DNA of 47,213 nucleotides from positions 1 through 47,213 of the IMG/VR virus record IMGVR_UViG_3300046450_000575; one strand, given 5' to 3'. Shown here piece after piece: positions 7,275-35,668 of this stretch (position 1 is its first letter; every line of letters begins with the position of its first letter). The notes beneath the pieces are model-generated. The model ran no database searches, had not been told where the DNA came from, and saw only the letters and a list, made by a program, of their open reading frames with translations. This stretch comes from a virus. Made by a program: the position numbers and the translations under genes.

Positions 7275-8198
7275 CTAACTACCTATCCACCATGTACGGA
7301 AATAGGTGTCTGACTTGGGTATCTCAGCTCCGTTGTTCGTATCTGCGTAGAGGAATCGTACTAATGGGGATATCGTTCTCCACTCATGGCCATAGGATAG
7401 ATAGTCTGCAGTCATATCCTCGGTGTTATGTGATAACGTCCATTCTGCAGGAAAGAAGCATTCTACATTCTCTTTCCAATCTGAGTTGAGTGAATCGTTT
7501 GATGTCTTGTCATTGATGTAATACTTACCGAAATGACCACAGCCTGTGGGAATGATAATACCCTTTAGATTGTCTTCAATAAACCCTTGGACGTTAGTAC
7601 CGTATTGTTCTTGTACTGCAGTCGGGTCTACATCGAATAGGTCTTTGAGATATAAGTGATCTTGGTCATGCCATGCACAATACCAGTCATTGTACGTATT
7701 AATATTATTCTCTTCAGTCCACCATTTATTCGGCATACTCATATAAGGGAGTTTTTCTGTTTCGATTCGTGCCAGTGTTTCGGTGTCTAACAGAGCTCTT
7801 AATGTCTTAGGTATTTCATCAACTTCTCCTGCAGGGGGAATAGCAGCTAATAGAACCGTCTGACATAGATCAAGGGGAATTATATTCGGGTGATAATATA
7901 TGCTCTTACCGAAAGTGTTCTCAACACTACCAACGAAGTTGAATAAGTCTAATCTGTACCATGCTTCATCTTGAATGTCGTCTCTTGGGGTGCATTCAAT
8001 AACTTGGATGTCGGGTAACAACCCTTCTCCGTCCATCGTGTGACAAAGATAGTTAACTGACATCATATCCATTGCAACTAAATCCAATCTCTTGGCTTTT
8101 AATCGAATGACAGCGGAGTTGACATCTTCTGCTGTAGTGGTTCCGAACTTGGGGATGATGATGTTGCAGTTATTGCGTTGAAAGGTCATGTCTGTCAT
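7275..8198 (-). CDS. Hypothetical protein (307 aa)
   Basis: A soluble, Trp- and His-rich protein (for example YNDWYCAWHDQDHLYLKDLF and IIIPTGCGHFGKYYINDK) without a membrane segment or a nucleotide-binding motif I can recognise. It has its own late-type promoter at 8231-8238 and precedes the oxygenase-like gene by 10 bp. The pair may act together. ATG at 8198 or at 8189 (MTFQRN) can start it. I do not assign a function. Confidence 0.7.
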   Translation of the reverse strand: MTDMTFQRNNCNIIIPKFGTTTAEDVNSAVIRLKAKRLDLVAMDMMSVNYLCHTMDGEGLLPDIQVIECTPRDDIQDEAWYRLDLFNFVGSVENTFGKSIYYHPNIIPLDLCQTVLLAAIPPAGEVDEIPKTLRALLDTETLARIETEKLPYMSMPNKWWTEENNINTYNDWYCAWHDQDHLYLKDLFDVDPTAVQEQYGTNVQGFIEDNLKGIIIPTGCGHFGKYYINDKTSNDSLNSDWKENVECFFPAEWTLSHNTEDMTADYLSYGHEWRTISPLVRFLYADTNNGAEIPKSDTYFRTWWIGS

Positions 8199-8230
8199 GT
8201 GGGGGTTCCATTATATAGTTGTTGTATGTT

Positions 8231-8238
8231 TATTTATA
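8231..8238 (-). promoter_or_regulatory. T4-type late promoter TATAAATA
   Basis: Exact TATAAATA on the minus strand, 33 bp before the ATG of the 307-aa gene. Just upstream, TCCTATG (8242-8248) and CATAGGA (8268-8274) form an inverted repeat with a 19-nt loop that could end the preceding transcript. Confidence 0.75.
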
Positions 8239-8289
8239 GTTTCCTATGCATCCATTATAAATGAAAACATAGGATTCTACAAGGGGGTT

Positions 8290-8403
8290 TTAAGCTAAGA
8301 AGGTATTTACGACCTTGTTAAATCTCCCACTCTTCATCAAACGATGAAATTTGTCTGCTTGTCTCCTAAGATACGAGGCAGACAATGATGCGTAATGTTG
8401 CAT
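8290..8403 (-). CDS. Very small basic protein (37 aa)
   Basis: MQHYASLSASYLRRQADKFH followed by a basic amphipathic stretch ending NTFLA. An AGGAG lies 7 nt before the ATG, a late-type promoter lies about 100 bp upstream and the frame ends before an A/T-rich hairpin. These signals support expression of a 37-residue protein. A short helical peptide is likely; function unknown. Confidence 0.5.
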   Translation of the reverse strand: MQHYASLSASYLRRQADKFHRLMKSGRFNKVVNTFLA

Positions 8404-8451
8404 TTTTATCTCCTGTTATGGTTGTGTAACTTTCCGTGAACTTGGACTTCG

Positions 8452-8471
8452 TTTGTGTAATGTCACACAAA
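8452..8471. promoter_or_regulatory. Perfect inverted repeat, operator-like
   Basis: TTTGTGT at 8452-8458 and ACACAAA at 8465-8471 flank a 6-bp centre. The palindrome lies between the late motif at 8505-8511 and the 37-aa gene, a place where a repressor could bind or the leader RNA could fold. No U-tract follows, so it is not a typical terminator. Confidence 0.45.
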
Positions 8472-8504
8472 CTACTTACTCTTGTCACATATTTGTTACA
8501 ATTC

Positions 8505-8511
8505 TATTTAG
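8505..8511 (-). promoter_or_regulatory. Late-type promoter CTAAATA
   Basis: Minus-strand CTAAATA just downstream of the 74-aa gene and about 100 bp before the 37-aa gene. It has the same core as the late motifs before structural genes. Confidence 0.5.
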
Positions 8512-8530
8512 ACATCCAGTAGTCTGTCTA

Positions 8531-8755
8531 TCAAACTGTCTTATCGACAATGTTGCCTACTGAGTCTATCTCTTTGTGAAACTGGGGTACTGGTGTGAAG
8601 GTCATCCGACCATCTACCATGGCAACTCTGCAATAGTCAACCCAATTACCCCATCCTAGTCTCTCAAATGTTATCTCCTCATCGAGGGATAACTCCTTTT
8701 CCTTATTTTGGTATAGTGTGTAATCTATCCACATACGTTCGCCATGTTCACTCAT
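8531..8755 (-). CDS. Hypothetical protein (74 aa)
   Basis: MSEHGERMWIDYTLYQNKEKELSLDEEITFERLG... is a compact acidic protein with an Ig-like or SH3-like strand pattern. AGGAGC precedes the ATG at 8755 with a 7-nt gap, so I prefer this start to 8776, which would run into the tRNA 3' end. It lies directly downstream of tRNA-Ser. Function unknown. Confidence 0.6.
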   Translation of the reverse strand: MSEHGERMWIDYTLYQNKEKELSLDEEITFERLGWGNWVDYCRVAMVDGRMTFTPVPQFHKEIDSVGNIVDKTV

Positions 8756-8777
8756 CGTTGAGCTCCTATTCTGCAAT

Positions 8778-8867
8778 TGGCGGAAGATATAGGATTCGAA
8801 CCTATGATACCGATAAAGGTATGCTGGTTTTCAAGACCAGTGCATTCAACCACTCTGCCAATCTTCC
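8778..8867 (-). tRNA. tRNA-Ser (anticodon UGA), CCA encoded
   Basis: The minus-strand 90 bases fold as a class II tRNA. The acceptor stem is GGAAGAT/ATCTTCC with discriminator G and an encoded CCA (8780-8778). The anticodon stem is CTGGT/ACCAG around loop CTTGAAA, giving UGA. The variable arm is long, with ATACC/GGTAT pairs, and the T arm has GGTTCGAATCC. T4-like phages carry tRNAs to fit their own codon use; UCA serine codons are favoured by A/T-rich genomes. Confidence 0.95.
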
Positions 8868-9152
8868 ATAAGTTAATACTGGTGTCTTCATGGTTATCCA
8901 CAGCAAAGCAAGGTCATGAAGTAATTTCGACATACTTCCCTTGCATCCTGAAATGTGGGGTGTGTAGGTTATGGTATAACTGGGTTATACGCACCGACTT
9001 TTGTACCACATATCGTCCTCCACCATATCAAACTATCGGTTCCAGTCACCGACCTACTTGGTATCGTATCCCTATTTGAGGTAACTAGTCCTCATTCTCA
9101 TCATAGAAGGTATAAGTAACTACTAGTGTCGGTTAAGACACTCGTTCAAAAA
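8868..9152 (-). other. Structured non-coding stretch upstream of tRNA-Ser
   Basis: About 285 bp without a frame I can support. It holds two perfect hairpins: GTATAAC-TGG-GTTATAC at 8974-8990 and AGTGTC-GGTTAA-GACACT at 9125-9142. The second lies 10 bp after the stop of the 82-aa gene and could end or process that transcript. Repeated ACCGA/TCGGT words suggest further folding. It could be a leader for tRNA processing, a small RNA or a spacer. Confidence 0.45.
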
Positions 9153-9401
9153 CTATTTGGTTTTTTTCGTCTTTGGTTTTGCCTTACGGTAGTTCTTGGT
9201 CTTCACTGGTTCCACTGGTGGTGGTACATCCATTGTGTATTTGACCTCGACCTTCTTAGGGGCTCTCTTTTTGTAAACTTTCTTTTTAGACTCGTCTACA
9301 TTTGGTGTTGATTTGTCGTCTGCAATAAATCGACCCTTGTCGTCTCTTGCTCTGACCCATTCAAATCCAAAGAAGTCTGTGATGTTATTCCACCATCCCA
9401 T
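9153..9401 (-). CDS. Conserved marine T4-like phage protein, Lys-rich (82 aa)
   Basis: MGWWNNITDFFGFEWVRARDDKGRF followed by ADDKSTPNVDESKKKVYKKRAPKK and a Lys/Pro-rich tail. I recognise this plan from short proteins of marine T4-like phages: WW...FFGF start, then RxRDxKGRFxADDxSTPxVxE, then a basic tail. Function is unknown; the tail suggests nucleic acid binding or capsid association. It follows the porin gene by 12 bp and has no promoter of its own that I can see. Confidence 0.65.
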   Translation of the reverse strand: MGWWNNITDFFGFEWVRARDDKGRFIADDKSTPNVDESKKKVYKKRAPKKVEVKYTMDVPPPVEPVKTKNYRKAKPKTKKTK

Positions 9402-9413
9402 GATATTCTCCTA

Positions 9414-10025
9414 CTAAAATGAATACTCGATTCCGAATGTTAGTGAGTCCACTGCAGTGTCTTCCAACACGTTCTGTCCTACCAACATATAGAATGTCGT
9501 ATCTTTAATTGTCTTAGCACCTCTCATCATATAATATGAGTCGTTGCCCTGTCTATCGAATGTCCCATAGATGAACTTTGCGTCCACCAATGGTACGAAC
9601 CATAGATCATAGGTCACTTCACCATATATGTCATGAGTGTCTAAGTCCTGAAATCCAGTGATGGACAATCCACCCACTGAAACTGATGCGTATACTTCTT
9701 CAACTGAATCGTATACACTATCCCACACATATCGAATGTATCCGACATCTAATGAGACATTGTCTGTTATTGATAGGTCATATCCACCGTAATAGTTGAG
9801 TTCTCGTGATGTAGTCTCTCCTGTAACGTTGACCTCGGAACCCCATACCCCTAGGTATAGACCTTCCGTCTCTGCGTGTAAACCGAATGATTTAACAGGT
9901 TTGCCTGACTGAGATTGACCTCTCCAAATGTAGTCACTTGAGTAACCTACAAATCCACTGACATCGGCAAATGTCGGTGTTGAAAATAGCATTAATGATA
10001 ATGCTGTTAATAATAATTTATTCAT
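9414..10025 (-). CDS. Outer-membrane porin-like protein (TorF/Gcw_chp family)
   Basis: Residues 1-20 (MNKLLLTALSLMLFSTPTFA) are a Sec signal peptide with a signal peptidase I site before DVSG. The mature 183 residues show alternating aromatic beta strands typical of an outer-membrane barrel: SSDYIWRGQSQS near the N-terminus, LYLGVWGSEV, ELNYYGGYD, and a C-terminal GIEYSF ending in Phe, the signal for BAM insertion. SDYIWRGxSQ and the LG(V/I)WGS word are hallmarks of the TIGR02001/Gcw_chp bacterial proteins. A phage gene for a host outer-membrane protein suggests envelope remodelling or block of superinfection. It has a late-type motif and AGGAAGG Shine-Dalgarno upstream. Confidence 0.85.
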   Translation of the reverse strand: MNKLLLTALSLMLFSTPTFADVSGFVGYSSDYIWRGQSQSGKPVKSFGLHAETEGLYLGVWGSEVNVTGETTSRELNYYGGYDLSITDNVSLDVGYIRYVWDSVYDSVEEVYASVSVGGLSITGFQDLDTHDIYGEVTYDLWFVPLVDAKFIYGTFDRQGNDSYYMMRGAKTIKDTTFYMLVGQNVLEDTAVDSLTFGIEYSF

Positions 10026-10044
10026 AATATATCCTTCCTATAGT

Positions 10045-10052
10045 TATTTATT
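10045..10052 (-). promoter_or_regulatory. Late-type promoter AATAAATA before the porin gene
   Basis: Minus-strand AATAAATA followed by ACTATAGGAAGGATATATT and the ATG. It overlaps the TAA of the preceding oxygenase gene. Here a strong Shine-Dalgarno (AGGAAGG) lies between motif and start. Confidence 0.5.
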
Positions 10053-10695
10053 GTTGTTTAAAACGTATATTCCCAGCGACACTGATACGTTCACCCCCAC
10101 AATAGAAGGGGTACACTGAGTGTCTCAACCAACTAGGGAAGACCAATAGGTCACCCTGCAGTGGAAAATGACTGAATGTAGACACGTTCAAGAATTGAGT
10201 CTCTCCATAGTGCAGTTCAATGTGACCTGCCATGGGTGTAACTGGCATTGGGCCTGCAGCAGTAGGAGCCTCTTTATTCGTGTCGTATTTGTTGTCGATT
10301 GCATCTTCATATTTTACAGTGTTCTTAGTGTAAAAGACGAAAGAGAACAGACCATCATGTGAATGAATTGGATTGAACTCGGCATTGTTTGCTACGTTCA
10401 CCCATAGCCCATCGATTTCAAGATGTTCTTTGGGTATGCCTAGTTGACATTGATCTACCAGTACCATAACATGATTCATGATATGATCTTTTGTGTCATC
10501 GGTGACTATATCTTCAATAATTAACTGTTCTTCTACTCTTCCTGCAAGTAGTCCACCAACATTGTGATCTTTAGACCCTCTCCGTTGCTCTATACAGTCG
10601 GTTACATGACCTAGATGGTCAGGGTCGATTGCTCCAATATATAGAGGTGGCCCGAATGGACTGATCACTGGCTGATAGTAGTTGTCATCATTCAT
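10048..10695 (-). CDS. 2OG-Fe(II) oxygenase family protein (215 aa)
   Basis: It fits the phage/marine family TIGR02466 (2OG-FeII_Oxy_5). LWVNVANNAEFNPIHSHDG gives the proximal metal motif (H111 with H113 or D114), and GDLLVFPSWLRHSVYPFYCGGERISVAGN gives distal His192 and the 2OG-binding Arg203. Family members of this type are common in T4-like marine phages, but their substrate is not known. It lies in a run of oxygenase genes and precedes the porin gene. Cytoplasmic, no signal peptide. Confidence 0.82.
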   Translation of the reverse strand: MNDDNYYQPVISPFGPPLYIGAIDPDHLGHVTDCIEQRRGSKDHNVGGLLAGRVEEQLIIEDIVTDDTKDHIMNHVMVLVDQCQLGIPKEHLEIDGLWVNVANNAEFNPIHSHDGLFSFVFYTKNTVKYEDAIDNKYDTNKEAPTAAGPMPVTPMAGHIELHYGETQFLNVSTFSHFPLQGDLLVFPSWLRHSVYPFYCGGERISVAGNIRFKQQ

Positions 10696-10710
10696 AATAT
10701 AGTGTCTCTC

Positions 10711-10929
10711 TTATACTGCTTTAGGTACGTACTCAATTTTGACTAGACCCGACTTGGTACGTCTGTCCAATTCATTCTTCACCTTCTGTTTTAGTTTCGA
10801 TGACTTGGGGTCATTGTATGCTTTCAATAGTGTTTCTATCGATTGACATTTCATGTAGTGGTGAACGATTGTTTTCTTGGTTGACCCTCGTGCAACGGTC
10901 ACTGAGGTTGGTGCAAATTTAACTGGCAT
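10711..10929 (-). CDS. Conserved marine T4-like phage protein (72 aa)
   Basis: MPVKFAPTSVTVARGSTKKT then HYMKCQSIETLLKAYNDP and KLKQKVKNELDRR. I recognise this pattern (MPVKFxPT...RG...HYxxxxxxEEL...KLKxKxxxEL) from small proteins of marine T4-like phages. Basic, soluble, likely helical. It overlaps the zinc-finger-like gene by 11 bp. No function known to me. Confidence 0.65.
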   Translation of the reverse strand: MPVKFAPTSVTVARGSTKKTIVHHYMKCQSIETLLKAYNDPKSSKLKQKVKNELDRRTKSGLVKIEYVPKAV

Positions 10930-11164
10930 TTCTTTCCCCTAGATTACGATTAACAGTTGCACTAGCTGTATCGCTAAACTGATTGCTGTTATTGTTGTTA
11001 AAATCTTCAATATTGTTATTTGTTTTCTCATTATCTTTCCTTTGATGATATGATAGACTGCACTGAGCCCCACAAAATATGTGGAGACGGTCTTGTGTGT
11101 GGTACTTGATCTCACTTACTGGAGTCATTGCATCACACACTGAACACCTCAATTGTCCATCCAT
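10919..11164 (-). CDS. Small zinc-finger-like protein with Asn-rich tail (81 aa)
   Basis: CSVCD at residues 7-11 and FCGAQC at about 30-35 give a C2-C2 or C2-C-C zinc site in a short N-terminal domain. After it comes an Asn-rich low-complexity segment (NNNIEDFNNNNSN). Proteins with such knuckles in phages often bind nucleic acid or host RNA polymerase, but nothing specific shows which. It lies between an oxygenase-like gene and the 72-aa conserved gene. Confidence 0.6.
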   Translation of the reverse strand: MDGQLRCSVCDAMTPVSEIKYHTQDRLHIFCGAQCSLSYHQRKDNEKTNNNIEDFNNNNSNQFSDTASATVNRNLGERNAS

Positions 11165-11172
11165 TTTATTTT

Positions 11173-11775
11173 TTATTTTATGACAACCTTAGCAAATGTA
11201 GGGCCGTCTGTTTGTTCTTCTGTTGGTTGATCATCATCACCGTGGTGATAATTATCACTGTTTTGGTTTTCATTAAACCAAACACCCAACATCCATTTTT
11301 CCCCTGCAGTAATAGGTAACACTCCCACGCTTCTCAGACTAGGATTGTTAACGATTAACATATCTCCAACTTTGTCGTTGATGATACTGCTGTCTACCAC
11401 TAGATTACCTCCATGGTAACCCTCTGATAGATTGAATAACACTAGACCAGTGTCTTCTTCTTGGGATGTGTTAAATTCATATGAATCCACTGGATAGCAT
11501 ATGATCTGTATATGACTAGGCTCTTCGAAACACTCACCATCGGGTAAAAAATCTTCTACCCAAGAATAAATCTTTTCGAAATCGGCATCGCCTACTTCAT
11601 CGGGGACAATGTTGTACACCTCAATCTCACTATGGTCTACCTTAAACCTAGAGGTTCCACCTTCAATTTCGTCTTCTTCTTCGGTGAATGCTTGTCTTAC
11701 TGCTAGTGCTATGACTGCATTACATTGCTCTTCGTCTAGTACTCTGTTACCGAGTGTTAATATATTATCTTGCAT
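11173..11775 (-). CDS. Degenerate 2OG-oxygenase-like protein (200 aa)
   Basis: The second half keeps the prolyl-hydroxylase-like scaffold: GLVLFNLSEGYHGGNLVVD, GDMLIVNN and ITAGEKWMLGVWF align with the usual LVYLN..F.GG, G..L.F and T.G.R..L..WF. The metal ligands are not there: the HxD position reads NTSQEED and the distal His is replaced in SLRSVGVLPIT. It is probably not an active oxygenase and may have become a binding or partner protein for the gene just upstream, which it overlaps by one base. Confidence 0.6.
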   Translation of the reverse strand: MQDNILTLGNRVLDEEQCNAVIALAVRQAFTEEEDEIEGGTSRFKVDHSEIEVYNIVPDEVGDADFEKIYSWVEDFLPDGECFEEPSHIQIICYPVDSYEFNTSQEEDTGLVLFNLSEGYHGGNLVVDSSIINDKVGDMLIVNNPSLRSVGVLPITAGEKWMLGVWFNENQNSDNYHHGDDDQPTEEQTDGPTFAKVVIK

Positions 11776-12470
11776 TAGTTATTTCCTGTTGATGGGTGGA
11801 AGAATTGTACTTGACTGATTCTCCAGTTATCTCCACTATATTTAGTGTAGTCTCCGATATAAGCTCCGTGCAATCTATTGCCTGGGAATACAACACATCG
11901 ATTGAATTTAGCAGGGATGATTGTATTTAAATCAAAGTCGTCTTGACATGGGTAGAGTAGTCCATGGTGTTCATCGTTAGATATCCACTCACCTTCGTAG
12001 ACTGCAGTTCCACCACTCTCCTGTTTATCCAAATAAACGAGCATGTTTAGTGTTGCAAGTTTGTCGGGAGTGTCAAATGACGAATCAGTGTGTGGGTAGT
12101 GTTGAAATGCAGGGTCGAATTGATTAATCGTTTGGAACACATTGAATTCGTGAATCATATCCCAATTGTATTTTCCCTTATGGAAATGTTTTCTGCATAT
12201 GTCCAATAGTCGTTCCATCTCACCAAAATATTTTCTAGTGGGGTGGCCGACCTTATCAACGATTCTGCAATCATTGTAGTCAATTCCGTTAGGGGATTCT
12301 CTCTCCGTAGAGTATTTCCACATTGGGAATTGACGAGCCATGAGGAAGTCGTGTATGTCTTCAGGATTCTCATAGAAGTTGTCTATGGTAATTGTCAACC
12401 CATCAAATGTGGGCTCCCACTTTTCAGACATCTTGAATAGTTCATCGTGAATGTATGTTTTACTTACCAT
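11775..12470 (-). CDS. 2OG-Fe(II) oxygenase-like protein, DUF6445 type (231 aa)
   Basis: HYPHTDSSFD gives H127 and D129; LATLNMLVYLDKQESGGTAVYEG follows as in DUF6445; NRCVVFPGNRLHGAYI gives H201, and NWRISQVQFF gives R217. The full catalytic set of the 2OG fold is thus present. The start at 12470 has AGAGGA 8 nt upstream and overlaps the previous gene by 11 bp. The substrate is unknown; the same family occurs in marine bacteria and phages. Confidence 0.78.
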   Translation of the reverse strand: MVSKTYIHDELFKMSEKWEPTFDGLTITIDNFYENPEDIHDFLMARQFPMWKYSTERESPNGIDYNDCRIVDKVGHPTRKYFGEMERLLDICRKHFHKGKYNWDMIHEFNVFQTINQFDPAFQHYPHTDSSFDTPDKLATLNMLVYLDKQESGGTAVYEGEWISNDEHHGLLYPCQDDFDLNTIIPAKFNRCVVFPGNRLHGAYIGDYTKYSGDNWRISQVQFFHPSTGNN

Positions 12471-13374
12471 GGTTTATGTCCTCTTGAAGGAAGTTATAAG
12501 ACATGTCTCGTCCTGTTGTATTATTGTCTAAGTCTGTCTTATGCCATAAATTAAACGATATACTGATACGTTCATATCCAGTCTCTATACCGTTTCTTAT
12601 AGAGGGTACTGCGTGTTGTAGGTAAGAGGGCCAGAGTAAGAAGTCACCTGTGTTCGGGTATACATTCATTTCTGACTCAGTTCCATTCGTACCATTAAAA
12701 TCTATATTGTTCATCCCATCTCTTTTTACAAGACGATCAACTTGTTGTTGACCTGACAATGCCATGATTGATGGTGATGTGAACTTAATCGGTTGTGACC
12801 CTTCGACTGCCTTGACGTAGTATGTTCCACTCATCTTACAATTGGTATGATTGTGTGTCTCATGATGGTGTTCACCAGTGTACACATTAACCCATGCAAA
12901 TAGATGTATGTCATTCCTTGATAGGTGACTCACTGGTATATTCAACATATTCTGTATGTACGAGATATAGGTGTCCTTACATATATCTGAAAAGTCCTTG
13001 AACCATTCTAGGTTGTGGGTCTCTGTACGTACATCCTCATCAAAATAAGTCGTGTAATTACGTCCTAGATCGTGTTCTGCACGTTCTTTAACCTTACTGA
13101 CTAGTCGTCTGCAATCCACCGCAATGTGGTCATGAGGTAAGTTGAAATGTCCCCTTAAAAAAGGAGTAGCAAATACTGGTATTATCTCACCATCAGCTGG
13201 ACGAAAATCTATCGAGGGTAATTGATTTTCCACACGTTTAGCAGCTTCAAGATCATCTGATTCATCAAACTCTGTAGGTGCAAGATATCCTTTTTCATCC
13301 GTATTTGTTTCATTAAATGTACTTTGTACATTATTAGAAACATTTTGGGGTGGCATTATACCCTTTGGTCTCAT
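12460..13374 (-). CDS. 2OG-Fe(II) oxygenase family protein, TIGR02466 type (304 aa)
   Basis: After a polar N-terminus of about 60 residues the protein shows IIPVFATPFLRG, LFAWVNVYTGEHHHETHNHTN (candidate ligands H174/H176), then GDFLLWPSYLQHAVPS (H254) and GYERISISFN (R269). These match the 2OG-FeII_Oxy_5 family, like the 215-aa protein encoded at 10048-10695; the two are distant paralogues. The gene overlaps the spanin-like lipoprotein gene by 4 bp upstream. Substrate unknown. Confidence 0.83.
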   Translation of the reverse strand: MRPKGIMPPQNVSNNVQSTFNETNTDEKGYLAPTEFDESDDLEAAKRVENQLPSIDFRPADGEIIPVFATPFLRGHFNLPHDHIAVDCRRLVSKVKERAEHDLGRNYTTYFDEDVRTETHNLEWFKDFSDICKDTYISYIQNMLNIPVSHLSRNDIHLFAWVNVYTGEHHHETHNHTNCKMSGTYYVKAVEGSQPIKFTSPSIMALSGQQQVDRLVKRDGMNNIDFNGTNGTESEMNVYPNTGDFLLWPSYLQHAVPSIRNGIETGYERISISFNLWHKTDLDNNTTGRDMSYNFLQEDINHGK

Positions 13375-26292: not shown

Positions 26293-26299
26293 TATTTAG
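26293..26299 (-). promoter_or_regulatory. Late-type promoter CTAAATA
   Basis: Minus-strand CTAAATA across the TAA of the preceding gene, 31 bp before the ATG at 26262. Confidence 0.55.
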
Positions 26300-26706
26300 A
26301 CAAGTGAACCGTAGACTTTAAAACTTCCTGTTTCTAACTTCTCTATCTTTAGAGATAGTGTGTACGACTCTGCACTCTTGTCAAACTCATCATGTGGGGT
26401 ATCTACTGTCTTACCGAATGATTCGTTTCTGACGAAAGATATAGAATGTGTTCCACCTTCTGAGAAATCAACAACTGATTCCATTTCACGGTTTGCATCA
26501 GCTTCTGCAACTACTCTTGACAATCCAATTTGAAGTAATTTTGCTTCCATTTGATTGAATGCAGCTTCAGGATTCAAATACTCTGTAGTAGCACAATGAC
26601 CTAGAACGGCATTGACTCTTGACTTGATAACTGAATCAGTAATATCATATGCTGATTGCTCTGAAATTAATCCTGATTCTGTTATAAAACTTTTAAATGT
26701 TTTCAT
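26296..26706 (-). CDS. Probable head-internal protein with capsid-targeting-like N-terminus (136 aa)
   Basis: MKTFKSFITESGLISEQ matches the T4 capsid-targeting sequence (MKTYQEFIAEA in internal proteins) and has an I-x-E|S site suited to the prohead protease gp21 after residue 10. The rest is a small alpha/beta domain with no motif I can name. The family rule in T4 is that such proteins enter the prohead core, lose the tag and are injected with DNA. That they do so here is inference. Confidence 0.62.
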   Translation of the reverse strand: MKTFKSFITESGLISEQSAYDITDSVIKSRVNAVLGHCATTEYLNPEAAFNQMEAKLLQIGLSRVVAEADANREMESVVDFSEGGTHSISFVRNESFGKTVDTPHDEFDKSAESYTLSLKIEKLETGSFKVYGSLV

Positions 26707-29137: not shown

Positions 29138-31393
29138 TTAGTCTTTGAACTTAATCCCAATCTTAGGTAAGGTATTCTCACCAAAGTTTGCATGGTCTAG
29201 TGCTTTCTTAACATCTTTATGCTTTGAAAGACCCTTCTTAAGTTTTTCAATCTTCTTGATTGCAAAACTCATAGCACCACCATGATCGAGTGCAATTTTT
29301 ACTGCTAGTTTTGCAAATTCATCAGTGACTTTGTTCTTTCTGAAGTATACAGAAATCTCTTGTCCAGTCAATTTTTGACCGTCCATATTAGGTTTTTCAT
29401 TTAAGTTCTGAGACTCTTCTTTGATTCCTTTTCCTACAGCAGTATCGTATAACTTCTTACCATCTGCACCTTTTAGAGAAGTTGCATCTGTTGGGTTAGC
29501 GACTGCCTTGTATTCTGAACCTTCTTTCATACCCATAATACGTTGTGCAAGACCAACAAGTTTTTTCACATCGGAATTTTCCATTTGTGCTTTATTCTTG
29601 TCACTCACCTTTTCGTATGCTTGAGTGATAACACTTGCAGTGAACATGTCAACCATGATTCCACCGATTTTCTTTGCACCCTTAGTGTTAACGATTTCTT
29701 GAAAATCAGGTATTAGGTTCTTACCTTCACTGAGTACTTCTTCTATATTATCCATAGTGTCTCCTTCTACCGATTCGGTTCTTCTCTTCGGTTTTTGACT
29801 GTAATAGTCTTTTAAAAATTCTTTTGCTTGTGCAAGTGAAACTGGATAGTTTTTTGCAATGTCTTTTGCTGTCATACCTTGTTGAATGTCTAGGAATAGG
29901 TCACCCATTTTCCCTTCGTCTAGGAAGATGCCTTGTTGGATTGCAGATTCCATAACGAATGATTCATCGAAATGATAACCTTGTCCAGCAGTAGATGGGT
30001 CTCCGTATGTTGACTTACCTCGGACAACACCATCAAGTTTTCTTAGTTGTGACTTAGTTCCATCCAGTTGTACTAGTGTAACACCACCACTACCTTTTGT
30101 GAACTTGACTTTCAACTTCATCAACTTGGCTGCACTTGTGAATGCATCTGATTCGGGTTTCTGAATACCTTTAACTTGGTATACGATCTTCTCTTCATCT
30201 AATGATTCCTTAATACCGTTCTTCTTTCTCCATATAAGAACAGTTTGTGCATCATTGATTTGATCAGCGTAGTTTCCTTTACCCTCGGTGTTTTTCTTAT
30301 TGGAAGGATTTGCCTTCATCGCTTTCTGTGAATCTTTTTGGATGTATTCCAATGATGCTTTTGGTAAATCCCAAAAACGAACATTTTCTATGTTAGCCCC
30401 ACCTCGTGGTTTACCGTCACCCATACTCCACTTTTCTTCTAAATTAATAGACTCATTCATCTTTTGGATATCGCCTGGCTTCATTCCTGGCCATTTAGAA
30501 TCAGGATGAATATTCTTCTGACCCTTTGGTGGTTTAACTTTCCACACTATAGCTTGCTTTGCTTCGTTTGTTGATTCCTCAAAACCTTCGTCCCAATCAT
30601 CTGAAGCACCTCGTGGTTTTTGAGTAAGATACTTGATAGCACCTTTTCTCAATACTGCATCAGACTTATTTTTGTTAGCAGGATACTTCTTCATGATCAT
30701 CATGGTGTGGACAACCTTCTTTTCGAACTCTTTTGGAGAATCTTTCTTTTCTTCGTCTAATGATTCCTTAATACCCATCTTAGCCGCCTTGGAAACAGTC
30801 ATCAAAGTTTGATTGTCACTAGAGGTGAATGCACTATTACTGGGTTTTCTTTTAAACTTCTTAATGATCTTACGATTCTGAACAAGAACCCATGCTTCCG
30901 AAGATTCGTCAATTTCATCAGACTCACCCATTCGTTTACCCTGAGTTGCACTGGTATTGGTCGGAAACTTAGTGTCCTTGACTGCAACCATGTAACCACT
31001 CATATTTGCTTTCGGGTCACCCATGTTCTTTGCACCTTTCTTTAGTGCCTCTGAACTGTTACGTGCCTTGACTATTACACTTCGACCTTTCTTTAATTTG
31101 TTTATGCTCTTGGTGACTGTGACTTTCCAAAAATCCATGCCTTCCATGAATGCTTCGACTTCTTCGTTCACATCTCTTACAGTGAAATCTTCATTGTAAG
31201 GGAATCCTTTTAAAGGGTTGTCAAAAACCTGAGAGAAATTCTTTGATCTTTCTTTCTTCTTCTCTACATTTTTTGCAGCTGCAAGTTTTAGATACTCATC
31301 AACCGTCTGGCCTGGGGTATCACCTTTGTATGCAGCTGTAATTTCTGTAGTACCCACTTCGTGGACACCATTGTTTTTCTTATTTCCTGACAT
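29138..31393 (-). CDS. Large head-associated polyprotein-like protein (751 aa)
   Basis: A Lys/Glu-rich protein that reads as a chain of small basic domains joined by acidic linkers. The linkers contain sites that fit the T4 prohead protease rule (I/L-x-E, cut before S/G/A): IDE163|S, SLDE214, SLDE400, VME482|S, LDE493|G, LSE556|G. GIKESLDEE occurs twice (residues 207-215 and 393-401), and the segment after the first and second linker looks duplicated in plan. This suggests a precursor cut into several internal head proteins or peptides. Related long proteins occur in marine T4-like phages. It overlaps the following HNH-linked gene by 14 bp. No enzyme motif seen. Confidence 0.66.
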   Translation of the reverse strand: MSGNKKNNGVHEVGTTEITAAYKGDTPGQTVDEYLKLAAAKNVEKKKERSKNFSQVFDNPLKGFPYNEDFTVRDVNEEVEAFMEGMDFWKVTVTKSINKLKKGRSVIVKARNSSEALKKGAKNMGDPKANMSGYMVAVKDTKFPTNTSATQGKRMGESDEIDESSEAWVLVQNRKIIKKFKRKPSNSAFTSSDNQTLMTVSKAAKMGIKESLDEEKKDSPKEFEKKVVHTMMIMKKYPANKNKSDAVLRKGAIKYLTQKPRGASDDWDEGFEESTNEAKQAIVWKVKPPKGQKNIHPDSKWPGMKPGDIQKMNESINLEEKWSMGDGKPRGGANIENVRFWDLPKASLEYIQKDSQKAMKANPSNKKNTEGKGNYADQINDAQTVLIWRKKNGIKESLDEEKIVYQVKGIQKPESDAFTSAAKLMKLKVKFTKGSGGVTLVQLDGTKSQLRKLDGVVRGKSTYGDPSTAGQGYHFDESFVMESAIQQGIFLDEGKMGDLFLDIQQGMTAKDIAKNYPVSLAQAKEFLKDYYSQKPKRRTESVEGDTMDNIEEVLSEGKNLIPDFQEIVNTKGAKKIGGIMVDMFTASVITQAYEKVSDKNKAQMENSDVKKLVGLAQRIMGMKEGSEYKAVANPTDATSLKGADGKKLYDTAVGKGIKEESQNLNEKPNMDGQKLTGQEISVYFRKNKVTDEFAKLAVKIALDHGGAMSFAIKKIEKLKKGLSKHKDVKKALDHANFGENTLPKIGIKFKD

Positions 31394-32808: not shown

Positions 32809-34116
32809 CTATTTAGTCTTTTTTAAAAGTAGTTCTCGTGTTTTCCATGCAATAGCTCTGGCATTAGTGGGAAATTTCTTTGCCCATGCAGAGATACTAC
32901 CAAAGTGACTGTCTGCAGTCTTCTTTAGTGATGCAGCGGTATCGTTATTTTCAATCTCTATAAACCCTGTTCTGAACATGGTCTTGAATAGTTTTGCATT
33001 AGTCTCTACTGCATCGTGTTCCATCTTAACTACTTCAGGGGGAACTGTTCGAGCTCTTAAATCATTGAGTTTTAGTGCAAGTTCTAGACTTGTTTTAACG
33101 AATACCATCTTGGATTCATATCCCAATGCATCTAATTGTGCCTTATAGTCTTTAATCTTACTGGCTTTTGCACTAGTAGTGTCAAATACTAGACCCAATC
33201 TATTGGGAATGTACAAGTCCATTTGTTTTCCTGCTATTTTCTTTGCCTTTGCTCTCATCCCATCTCTTTCGGGATTGACTTCACCACTACCATCTGAAGT
33301 CATCTTCATAGACATCTTTGCAGTGGTCATCATTCTTTCGAAATGTTGATCACTATTAATCATTTTGAGACCCATAGTGTGTAGTGATAGTGCTTTAACA
33401 ACTGTTGTTTTACCTGAGCCTGGGCCACCCATTAGGAATAATGCTTTGAAGATTCCTTGGTCATAGACCCCTTCTTGTAATTCGTCTTCCTGTATATCGG
33501 TCTGCATATAAAACGGCAGTGTTCCTTCAGTAAGTCCCATACCTCGTCTTACTGCATTGTACAGTTGTTTCTGTTGTGCTTTGTTAGTAGATGGAACACC
33601 GTCTTTGAAGTTATCAAAGTCTCCGTCCTCTGCATACTGTCTCATTTTGGATGCACTCATACCACTAGTGTCATCTGCATCGGGGTCTCTCTCCCCTGCA
33701 GATACAATTTCGATCTGATCAAACTTGTAGTAACCGTGTCGTGCTTTGACTCCGTTGTACTTCTTCAACAACATATCGAACTCTCTAACTCTGTCCGAAC
33801 CTACTACCATCTTAATTTTTTTGTAACCCTGTCGTTCTAATTCTACTGCAATGTCAAATACTGTTCTTGCAGCGGTATCAACAATGATCTTACCAAAGAA
33901 CTGTCTAAGGAACTTGATCTTGTCTACATGTGATAGGGGGTTCTTAACCTTGTCATTTGAGTGTGAAGTGAACACTAGAGGTGTATAACCACCCGAGACT
34001 GACTGTAGTTTGTTTACCAACTTTGCATGACCAGTGGTGGGTGGGTTGAATCTTCCAAAGGAGAACACTGCACCCTTACCAGTTGCTTCAGTTAAAAATT
34101 TGTTAAACGTTTTCAT
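32809..34116 (-). CDS. Nucleotidyltransferase-P-loop kinase fusion with capsid-targeting-like tag (435 aa)
   Basis: MKTFNKFLTEA (residues 1-11) matches the T4 capsid-targeting sequence. FSFGRFNPPTTGH (18-30) and SGMSASKMRQ (151-160) are the HxGH and ISSTxxR motifs of HIGH-type adenylyl/cytidylyltransferases. LFLMGGPGSGKTTVV (Walker A, 230-238), then MINSDQ and LVFDTT, form a zeta/PNK-type kinase domain. The NadR-like order (NMN adenylyltransferase, then kinase) suggests NAD metabolism; nucleic-acid end repair is the alternative. LTE197|G and LQE215|G sites lie between the two domains, so the prohead protease could free both enzymes inside the head. Confidence 0.8.
   Translation of the reverse strand: MKTFNKFLTEATGKGAVFSFGRFNPPTTGHAKLVNKLQSVSGGYTPLVFTSHSNDKVKNPLSHVDKIKFLRQFFGKIIVDTAARTVFDIAVELERQGYKKIKMVVGSDRVREFDMLLKKYNGVKARHGYYKFDQIEIVSAGERDPDADDTSGMSASKMRQYAEDGDFDNFKDGVPSTNKAQQKQLYNAVRRGMGLTEGTLPFYMQTDIQEDELQEGVYDQGIFKALFLMGGPGSGKTTVVKALSLHTMGLKMINSDQHFERMMTTAKMSMKMTSDGSGEVNPERDGMRAKAKKIAGKQMDLYIPNRLGLVFDTTSAKASKIKDYKAQLDALGYESKMVFVKTSLELALKLNDLRARTVPPEVVKMEHDAVETNAKLFKTMFRTGFIEIENNDTAASLKKTADSHFGSISAWAKKFPTNARAIAWKTRELLLKKTK
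32810..32816 (-). promoter_or_regulatory. Late-type promoter CTAAATA, 5 nt before ATG
   Basis: Minus-strand CTAAATA, then GTATT and the ATG of the HNH-linked gene at 32804. It overlaps the TAG stop of the nucleotidyltransferase-kinase gene. Confidence 0.62.
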
Positions 34117-34291
34117 TCGGCATAATCCTAAATTTTAATAATGGTCTTCCATTGATAGTAATGTCACCCTTCTCGTTTCTACCGATCTCTTTGACGACAA
34201 TTTTCTTATTCTTGAATTTTCCACCAAGGACGACATCTCCTATATTTATGGGTATCATAATCGACTCATTAAAGTGTTTAAAGGATTTCAT
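34103..34291 (-). CDS. Small head-targeted-like protein (62 aa)
   Basis: MKSFKHFNESIMIPINIGDVVLGGKFKNKK... The N-terminal MKSFKHFNE resembles the capsid-targeting sequence and is followed by a small SH3-like beta barrel (GDVVLGGKFKNKKIVVKEIG). I place the start at 34291, where the ATG overlaps the TAA of the preceding gene (TAATG); the longer frame to 34345 lies inside that gene. Overlaps the kinase gene by 14 bp. Function unknown. Confidence 0.62.
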   Translation of the reverse strand: MKSFKHFNESIMIPINIGDVVLGGKFKNKKIVVKEIGRNEKGDITINGRPLLKFRIMPNENV

Positions 34292-34465: not shown

Positions 34466-35668
34466 TTATTTGTCCCAAGCCTTGATTGCAGTAAAGTTAT
34501 TGTGTGCAAATTCCATACGGTCTACAAGTTTAACTGCAGAACCACCTGAATCTATTGCAACATATCCTTCGGGGTTGACTGCTTCGAATCCTGTTGCAGT
34601 TTGTTTGAATGTACCAATACTCTTGACTCTATTCAATGCAACAATGATGATCTGTTTTGACTCCACCAATCCTCCCATGAATTTTGTAAGATTAATTAAG
34701 AACTTTTTCATCCCTCTCATGTCGTTATAGATTGATTCACCGATTTCTCGTTTGATCTCTTTGTGTTTCTCTGTCTTAACACCACCCACCACTTTGTCCT
34801 TCCAGTATGATTGAAAGTGTGCAAGGTATCCATCTGCAGTAGGTTTGTAACTTCCACCTCTTATAAGGGTGTTACAGTATGTTTTGTATGTTGCACCAGC
34901 ACCTTTCTTCGTAATCATCTCTTGAATTTTTTGGAACTTATCTAAGTCTCTCTTCGAAATACCATGAAATGATTTACCGACTTCCTTTAATGCGAGTGTA
35001 AGTTTAAGTGTTTCTGTTGCAGTCATTGTGGAGTTACCACTAACATCTTTGTATGATGCATCGTCTACCCAAACGTCATTAGAGACCCCTAGGTTTGCTA
35101 GGTTCACACCAAAGGATGCAGAGAGGTCTTCTATCGTGCCACCAGTGTAAGTAGTGTGAAAGACAATACCCAATTTTGCTCTGTCGATGTCCTCTCCGAT
35201 TTTAGAATCAGCGGATACTGCATAGAGAATAGTGTTCGGTTGGAATGTGATGTATTCAACACCGTCAATTTTTTTAGTTGTCTTATCATCGGTGAACATT
35301 AGATCACCCTGCATGATATTACTGAAAGATAGTTTACTGAGGTATTTGAATGAATCGAGAAACTTTGCTTCTAGTTGACCACTTAACTTTGGGTCTGCTT
35401 TGATCTCTGCTTCGGATGTGTAGAACTTAGGTTCTTTATTAAATAGAGATTTCTTTGCAACAAAGAATTGATTTGTTTCGGGATGTTTCCCACAAAAGAT
35501 TGCAGGAGCTCCATCCCATTTAACGGTCATATTGACGGAAGAGGCTTTGCTCCCTTTCATCATATCTCTAAGACCTCTTAGGAAGTTGATTGCTCCTCTT
35601 CCACCATCAATACCTTGATTGATGATTTCATCTTCGAGATGTTCTAAATGTAGATTTTTTGCACCCAT
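34466..35668 (-). CDS. KxDG ligase-like nucleotidyltransferase-fold protein (400 aa)
   Basis: MTVKWDGAPAIFCGK puts Lys50 in a K-W-D-G box, motif I of covalent nucleotidyltransferases (DNA/RNA ligases and capping enzymes). MQGDLMF (119-125) fits motif III. Near the C-terminus, NPEGYVAIDSGGSAVKLVDR (365-384) fits motifs IV (E367-G) and V (K380). In between are a large insert and KTYCNTLIRGGSY. The family is often annotated as an unknown phage protein (I associate it with DUF6267). If active it would seal nucleic acid ends. It has both a sigma70-like and a late promoter. Neighbour of the nucleotidyltransferase-kinase gene. Confidence 0.68.
   Translation of the reverse strand: MGAKNLHLEHLEDEIINQGIDGGRGAINFLRGLRDMMKGSKASSVNMTVKWDGAPAIFCGKHPETNQFFVAKKSLFNKEPKFYTSEAEIKADPKLSGQLEAKFLDSFKYLSKLSFSNIMQGDLMFTDDKTTKKIDGVEYITFQPNTILYAVSADSKIGEDIDRAKLGIVFHTTYTGGTIEDLSASFGVNLANLGVSNDVWVDDASYKDVSGNSTMTATETLKLTLALKEVGKSFHGISKRDLDKFQKIQEMITKKGAGATYKTYCNTLIRGGSYKPTADGYLAHFQSYWKDKVVGGVKTEKHKEIKREIGESIYNDMRGMKKFLINLTKFMGGLVESKQIIIVALNRVKSIGTFKQTATGFEAVNPEGYVAIDSGGSAVKLVDRMEFAHNNFTAIKAWDK

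Follow-up and report, generated by a model that had tools for sequence, protein, structure and literature searches.

In this work we have found that the open reading frame P0001, at 32809..34116 on the minus strand of the window (the whole 47,213-nucleotide stretch of DNA, from a marine T4-like phage, that was analysed), encodes a fusion of an adenylyltransferase with a P-loop kinase, and that this protein of 435 residues is quite probably head cargo, made as one precursor which a gp21-type protease would split into two enzymes. The fusion itself, which the original prediction had placed here without naming a strand, is present and was identified from the reading of the ORF, its ATG start and its family matches. 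The HIGH-superfamily adenylyltransferase domain occupies residues 14-195 (33532..34077, minus strand) and carries the motifs GRFNPPTTGH, GSDR and MSASKMR, in which the residues expected for catalysis, G29, H30, S154 and R159, are conserved. A match to phrog_3041, a phage 'cytidyltransferase' family, spans residues 1-201 with an E-value of 5.5e-59, and the transferase also gives a weak match to CTP_transf_like. The kinase domain, residues 216-435 (32812..33471, minus strand), has the motifs GGPGSGKTT, NSD, DTT and NxxRxR and likewise conserves the expected catalytic residues K236, D256, D312, R354 and R356. Its residues 224-395 match AAA_33 (E 6.8e-10) and Zeta_toxin (E 3.1e-9), in both cases above the Pfam gathering cut-off (39.9 versus 27 bits and 37 versus 22.3 bits, respectively). 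The two domains are joined by a linker of residues 196-215 (33472..33531, minus strand). An AlphaFold2 model of P0001, built with 24 relatives and having a mean pLDDT of 73, contains two ordered domains, and both the leader (residues 1-11) and the linker region (197-217) are among the stretches with pLDDT below 50.

The protein begins with a putative capsid-targeting leader, MKTFNKFLTE (residues 1-10; 34087..34116, minus strand), with a predicted cut at LTE10|A. Its supposed likeness to a T4 peptide was borne out when it was compared with the N-terminus of the T4 internal proteins IPII and IPIII, MKTYQEFIAEA, taken from the T4 genome record NC_000866: 6 of 11 residues of MKTFNKFLTEA are identical, and positions 4 (F/Y) and 8 (L/I) are similar. 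Residues 4 and 7 of the T4 leader are important for targeting and residues 8 and 10 for processing (PMC9026906), and all four positions are matched in P0001 by F4, F7, L8 and E10. The leader is also conserved in relatives. Of 25 distinct fusions, 23 have F or L at position 4, 22 have F at position 7 and 24 have E at position 10; L8 is kept, and positions 5 and 6 drift. Of 76 non-redundant transferase leaders, 51 have the core of the tag and most of the others have compact variants of it, while the transferase of Pelagibacter phage HTVC008M is without the tag. A strict form of the pattern, M[KR]x[FYL]xx[FYL][ILVM]xE, matches 2 of the 1123 possible starts in the window, the second belonging to an ORF of 136 residues with no family match (26296..26706, minus strand; MKTFKSFITE|S). 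A small ORF between P0001 and the neighbouring DUF6267 gene (34103..34291, minus strand; 62 residues from its ATG) was read from the sequence, and its start, MKSFKHFNES, is possibly a degenerate version of the tag. A full-text literature search for the T4 tag peptide gave no match, and in the open-access literature searched no capsid-targeting tag of such a kind is described for cyanophages.

T4 gp21 cleaves after L/I-x-E (PMC9026906). Sites of the type [LI]xE[AGS] occur in P0001 only at residues 10, 197 and 215; the two predicted to separate the enzymes, LTE197|G and LQE215|G, do lie in the linker, and neither domain contains one. When the protein was shuffled, sites both at 10 and within 190-222 arose in 5e-5 of the shuffles. 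The site at 215 reads [LI]xE|G in 25 of 25 distinct fusions, where it is kept despite an adjoining indel of four residues and P2 takes nine different residues. At 197, L/I and E are also kept in all 25, but no more than 16 have G, S or A at P1' and the other nine have another residue there, and this site may not always be cut; we consider a cut at 215 much firmer. The EGVYD sequence that follows from site 215 could be conserved partly because of the structure of the kinase: EG is kept in the kinase of Agrobacterium phage Atu_ph07, which has V at P3, and two relatives have VKE|G before the kinase. Structure as the sole cause was rejected, given that P2 varies freely and P3 does not, and given the tagged stand-alone kinases described below. 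Across 60 loci that lack the kinase fusion, the transferase body has fewer sites of the same type than expected (1 observed versus 8.4 expected) and the C-terminal tails have more (80 versus 20.7), counts that come from related sequences and are thus not independent. Elsewhere in the window, a protein of 751 residues without clear family (29138-31393) has five [LI]xE[AGS] sites where 1.2 would be expected (p 0.013) and is possibly another precursor that is cut in pieces.

How did a cleavage site come to lie in front of the kinase? A search with the kinase profile detected the kinase as a stand-alone protein in 21 IMG/VR loci. In all 21, [LI]xE|G precedes the kinase domain, and in most of them a leader resembling the capsid-targeting one stands before it (for example MKTFKALIQE|GVYD, MRDFKQYITE|GVYD, MKSYQELQE|GVYD and MKSFEELQE). 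The kinase of Methylophilales phage Melnitz starts with MKTFAELQE|GVYD and HTVC008M gp129 with MIPFILKE|GLYD. Since [LI]xE|G also closes the leaders of the stand-alone kinases, the site in the linker looks like a remnant of the processing of a tag that the kinase once had, and the shared site independently supports cleavage at 215. In the simplest history that these sequences suggest, the kinase lost its leader on fusion behind the transferase and kept its cleavage site. The same kinase is also found mid-way in a protein of 778 residues that starts with MKWNDLNEATG and has no assignment for its N-terminal part, gp053 of Atu_ph07 (L197:2257-4593).

The protease needed for such cuts is encoded by the same phage. 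A contig (that behind locus L005) shares 99.99% DNA identity with the window over 17.3 kb and was treated as the same phage; it encodes a protease of the gp21 family (PF03420, E 2.9e-39) and also the capsid protein gp23. This gp23 has NLGE|AAP at the expected propeptide cut, and the gp23 of a relative has VLSE|AAP, so the L/I-x-E-type cutting rule of gp21 appears to hold in this phage group.

The tag pattern, fixed beforehand, was then applied to S-CREM2 and S-SZBM1, two cyanophages whose virions have been analysed by mass spectrometry in published work. In S-CREM2 the strict pattern matches 4 of 4827 possible starts, and all four are those of annotated genes: the SAM hydrolase gp6, gp13, the APH-like kinase gp14 and the transferase gp154. 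All four belong to the published virion proteome, compared with 52 of 219 proteins overall (hypergeometric p=0.0029; PMC10665884). Two further S-CREM2 virion proteins have looser versions of the tag, gp136 (MQTFSMFFSED) and gp12, which is annotated as Cas9-like (internal RFASFMAEAA). In the S-CREM2 sequence (L032) the Cas9-like protein, with RFASFMAEAA near its N-terminus, and the APH-like kinase, whose strict tag VKRFDAFLTEE is read from a GTG start, lie at 7704-10313 and 10579-12846. For S-SZBM1, the published proteome does not include the two strict-tag proteins (105 and 165 residues) among those detected in virions, and it does include the transferase, whose leader is one residue shorter (MRFRQFIIEA; PMC9146016). 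The transferase family is T4-GC190, according to a note on Syn19_174, and T4-GC190 is reported from S-SM1 virions (PMC3037559). Published proteomes thus place the family in virions of S-SM1, S-SZBM1 and S-CREM2. NMNAT-like proteins are listed for the virions of S-SCSM1 and S-CBWM1, among them S-SCSM1 ORF91, annotated as an NMNAT (PMC9602691).

Could P0001 be an ordinary intracellular enzyme, with a leader and sites that arose by chance or are relics, and could its virion relatives be carried over from lysates? The cyanophage authors themselves caution that CsCl preparations may contain non-packaged protein carried over in this way, and the two S-SZBM1 proteins with the strict tag were not detected. 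Against this stand the four tagged S-CREM2 proteins, all listed for virions, the recurrence of the tag core or its compact variants among the transferase leaders, and the strand bias of further strict-tag ORFs near the transferase in other phages, of which 29 are on the same strand and 1 on the opposite strand. We regard an intracellular role as very improbable. It is only a little less improbable that the protein is packaged and remains whole, its leader being removed, its linker sites buried and a single bifunctional NadR-like enzyme delivered. NadR has the same domain order and is the best whole-chain Foldseek match, and the strong conservation of EGVYD may be structural. However, the model has low confidence in the linker, P3, P1 and P1' are fixed at 215 while P2 varies, and the leaders of the stand-alone kinases end in the same site.

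The conservation of the sites, the virion association in S-CREM2 and the presence of gp21 in the same phage make packaging and cleavage of P0001 well supported, with site 197 as the weakest point. Comparison of tag, sites and relatives hence strongly supports what had been proposed from this sequence, a single precursor targeted to the head and released by the prohead protease, and does so more for 215 than for 197. The incorporation of P0001 into heads, its cuts and all its enzyme activities are what we infer from such comparisons. In the mechanism that we propose, the leader would carry P0001 into the prohead core, as the IPII/IPIII leader does in T4, and the activated gp21-type protease would cut after E10 and E215 and perhaps after E197. 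This would leave inside the head a free adenylyltransferase (from about residue 11 to 197 or 215) and a free kinase (216-435), and the predicted new N-termini are at 11, 198 and 216, those at 11 and 216 being the firmest. Both enzymes would probably reach the next host inside the head. By analogy with the T4 internal proteins only, we infer that they would be injected with the DNA and act before phage gene expression.

In most of the relatives examined the transferase adjoins a DUF6267 protein (PF19782), which in the window is encoded at 34466..35668 on the minus strand. Its invariant residues include K50-W51-D52-G53, E367-G368-x-V370 and K380. A search of the PDB with the DUF6267 profile gave no match, and no paper on the family was found in the open-access literature searched. 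Structural matches of the model include trypanosome RNA editing ligase 1 (REL1; Z 7.6, 194 residues aligned) and T4 Rnl2 (Z 7.1), values which, being below 8, may be due to chance, although these alignments are far longer than the short helical rows among the DUF6267 matches. The model also aligns with T4 Rnl1 and several DNA ligases, and judged by the model the protein looks like a DNA or RNA ligase. In many relatives DUF6267 starts with the tag (MKNFNNYLAE|AKNTHMTH or MKIFKEYITE|QKNTH), whereas the protein of the window starts with MGAKNLHLEHLED and is untagged. Just before the transferase, at L002:4612-5004 and L003:4630-5001, lie small and strongly basic proteins whose leaders resemble the tag (MKKFSELTSELIERK and MLSFKQFVSEV); they are possibly basic internal head proteins. 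Within the window, a protein of 474 residues adjoining P0001 (31380-32804) has an HNH-endonuclease-like C-terminus and no clear tag at its start. Two overlapping ORFs at 257-940 and 868-2052 resemble, when read by eye, the two halves of a carbamoyltransferase, and the split is possibly a frameshift or an assembly error.

For the function of the two enzymes, NadR-like NAD repair and RNA/DNA end repair had been put forward. In its modelled fold the transferase is about as close to CoaD as to NMNAT enzymes (Z 12-14), with NadM at Z 13.6 and archaeal NMNAT at Z 12.5; its profile had no significant match in the PDB, where archaeal NMNAT reached an E-value of only 0.47. The kinase profile, built from 27 sequences, is nearest to zeta toxin (E 1.2e-5), then PSTK (seryl-tRNA(Sec) kinase; E 2.8e-4) and then adenylate kinases, and T4 PNK gives a weaker, partial match (E 2.8e-3). 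The PADLOC matches were dismissed as generic ATPase matches. We tentatively favour an NMNAT-like (coenzyme or NAD) reaction for the transferase, accompanied by an independent zeta/PNK-type kinase, though we would not put this at even chances. A NadR-like salvage, in which the kinase phosphorylates nicotinamide riboside and the transferase makes NAD, restoring it after NAD-depleting defences, seems rather doubtful to us. It agrees with the NMNAT-like fold, with the annotation of the S-SCSM1 virion protein, and with the first place of NadR among the Foldseek matches when the entire chain is used (E 1.3e-6; TM 0.27-0.32 over both domains). A resemblance in domain order and apparently in fold is what is left of the NadR proposal; membership of the NadR family was rejected, because the curated model TIGR01526 scores 24 bits against a cut-off of 341.15 and covers residues 19-74 only. 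CoaD, moreover, fits the transferase equally well, and the transferase mostly occurs without the kinase. The kinase is also found alone and, in Melnitz, far from the transferase, and for this reason an obligate two-step pathway of the NadR type is not favoured. Nucleic-acid end repair, which comes next after the NMNAT-like reading, is unlikely on present evidence. Here a PNK-like kinase would make 5'-phosphates and DUF6267 would seal the ends, countering nucleases or anticodon nucleases at entry. The kinase matches to zeta toxin, PSTK and T4 PNK, the ligase-like DUF6267 model and the position and frequent tagging of DUF6267 are in its favour. However, the ligase Z values are within the range of chance matches, the kinase is often absent or distant from DUF6267, as in Melnitz, the DUF6267 protein of the window has no tag, and no role in such a pathway is known for a HIGH-type transferase.

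Perhaps the Kyanoviridae group of marine T4-like phages uses a tag-and-cut code to load the head with the adenylyltransferase, the zeta/PNK-type kinase, the DUF6267 ligase-like enzyme and cargo polyproteins, a generalization that we offer as possible rather than probable. If it is true, further tagged ORFs around the three enzymes would belong to a head-filling kit, fusions with retained sites would be cargo polyproteins in which one tag delivers several free enzymes, and the delivered enzymes would, on entry, repair the host or rewire it. The ocean is rich in T4-like cyanophages and pelagiphages, and the authors who reported the 'cytidyltransferase' from virions could not decide whether it is real cargo. 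With a readable tag and cut sites, head cargo would become predictable from sequence alone, down to the exact peptide ends. The analysis would also widen the class of T4 internal proteins to include a precursor from which two enzymes would be freed, and it points to DUF6267 as a candidate new ligase-like family.

Among known systems, P0001 is closest in its leader to T4 IPII and IPIII, with which it shares the form MKT[YF]xxF[IL]xEA, the same targeting and processing residues and a gp21-type protease in the phage. The T4 internal proteins, however, are small and have one leader and one product, whereas P0001 has one leader, two enzyme domains and further sites between them. T4 Alt is likewise a head-borne enzyme matured by the prohead protease; it is injected, and gp21 cuts both its termini (PMC9026906). 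Alt is nevertheless a different enzyme and is trimmed, while the P0001 precursor would be split in two. NadR resembles P0001 in domain order and apparently in overall fold, but P0001 is far under the family cut-off, and its domains come apart in evolution and carry protease sites. The kinase is related by its P-loop kinase profile matches to zeta toxin, PSTK and T4 PNK, from which it differs in that its stand-alone forms bear a leader like the capsid-targeting one. Lastly, the T4-GC190 'cytidyltransferase' of cyanophages belongs to the same transferase family as P0001 and is reported as a virion protein in several of them, although the virion-reported members have no kinase domain. For these proteins the cyanophage papers, in the parts available, propose roles in NAD or cell-wall metabolism and suggest packaging without naming a tag.
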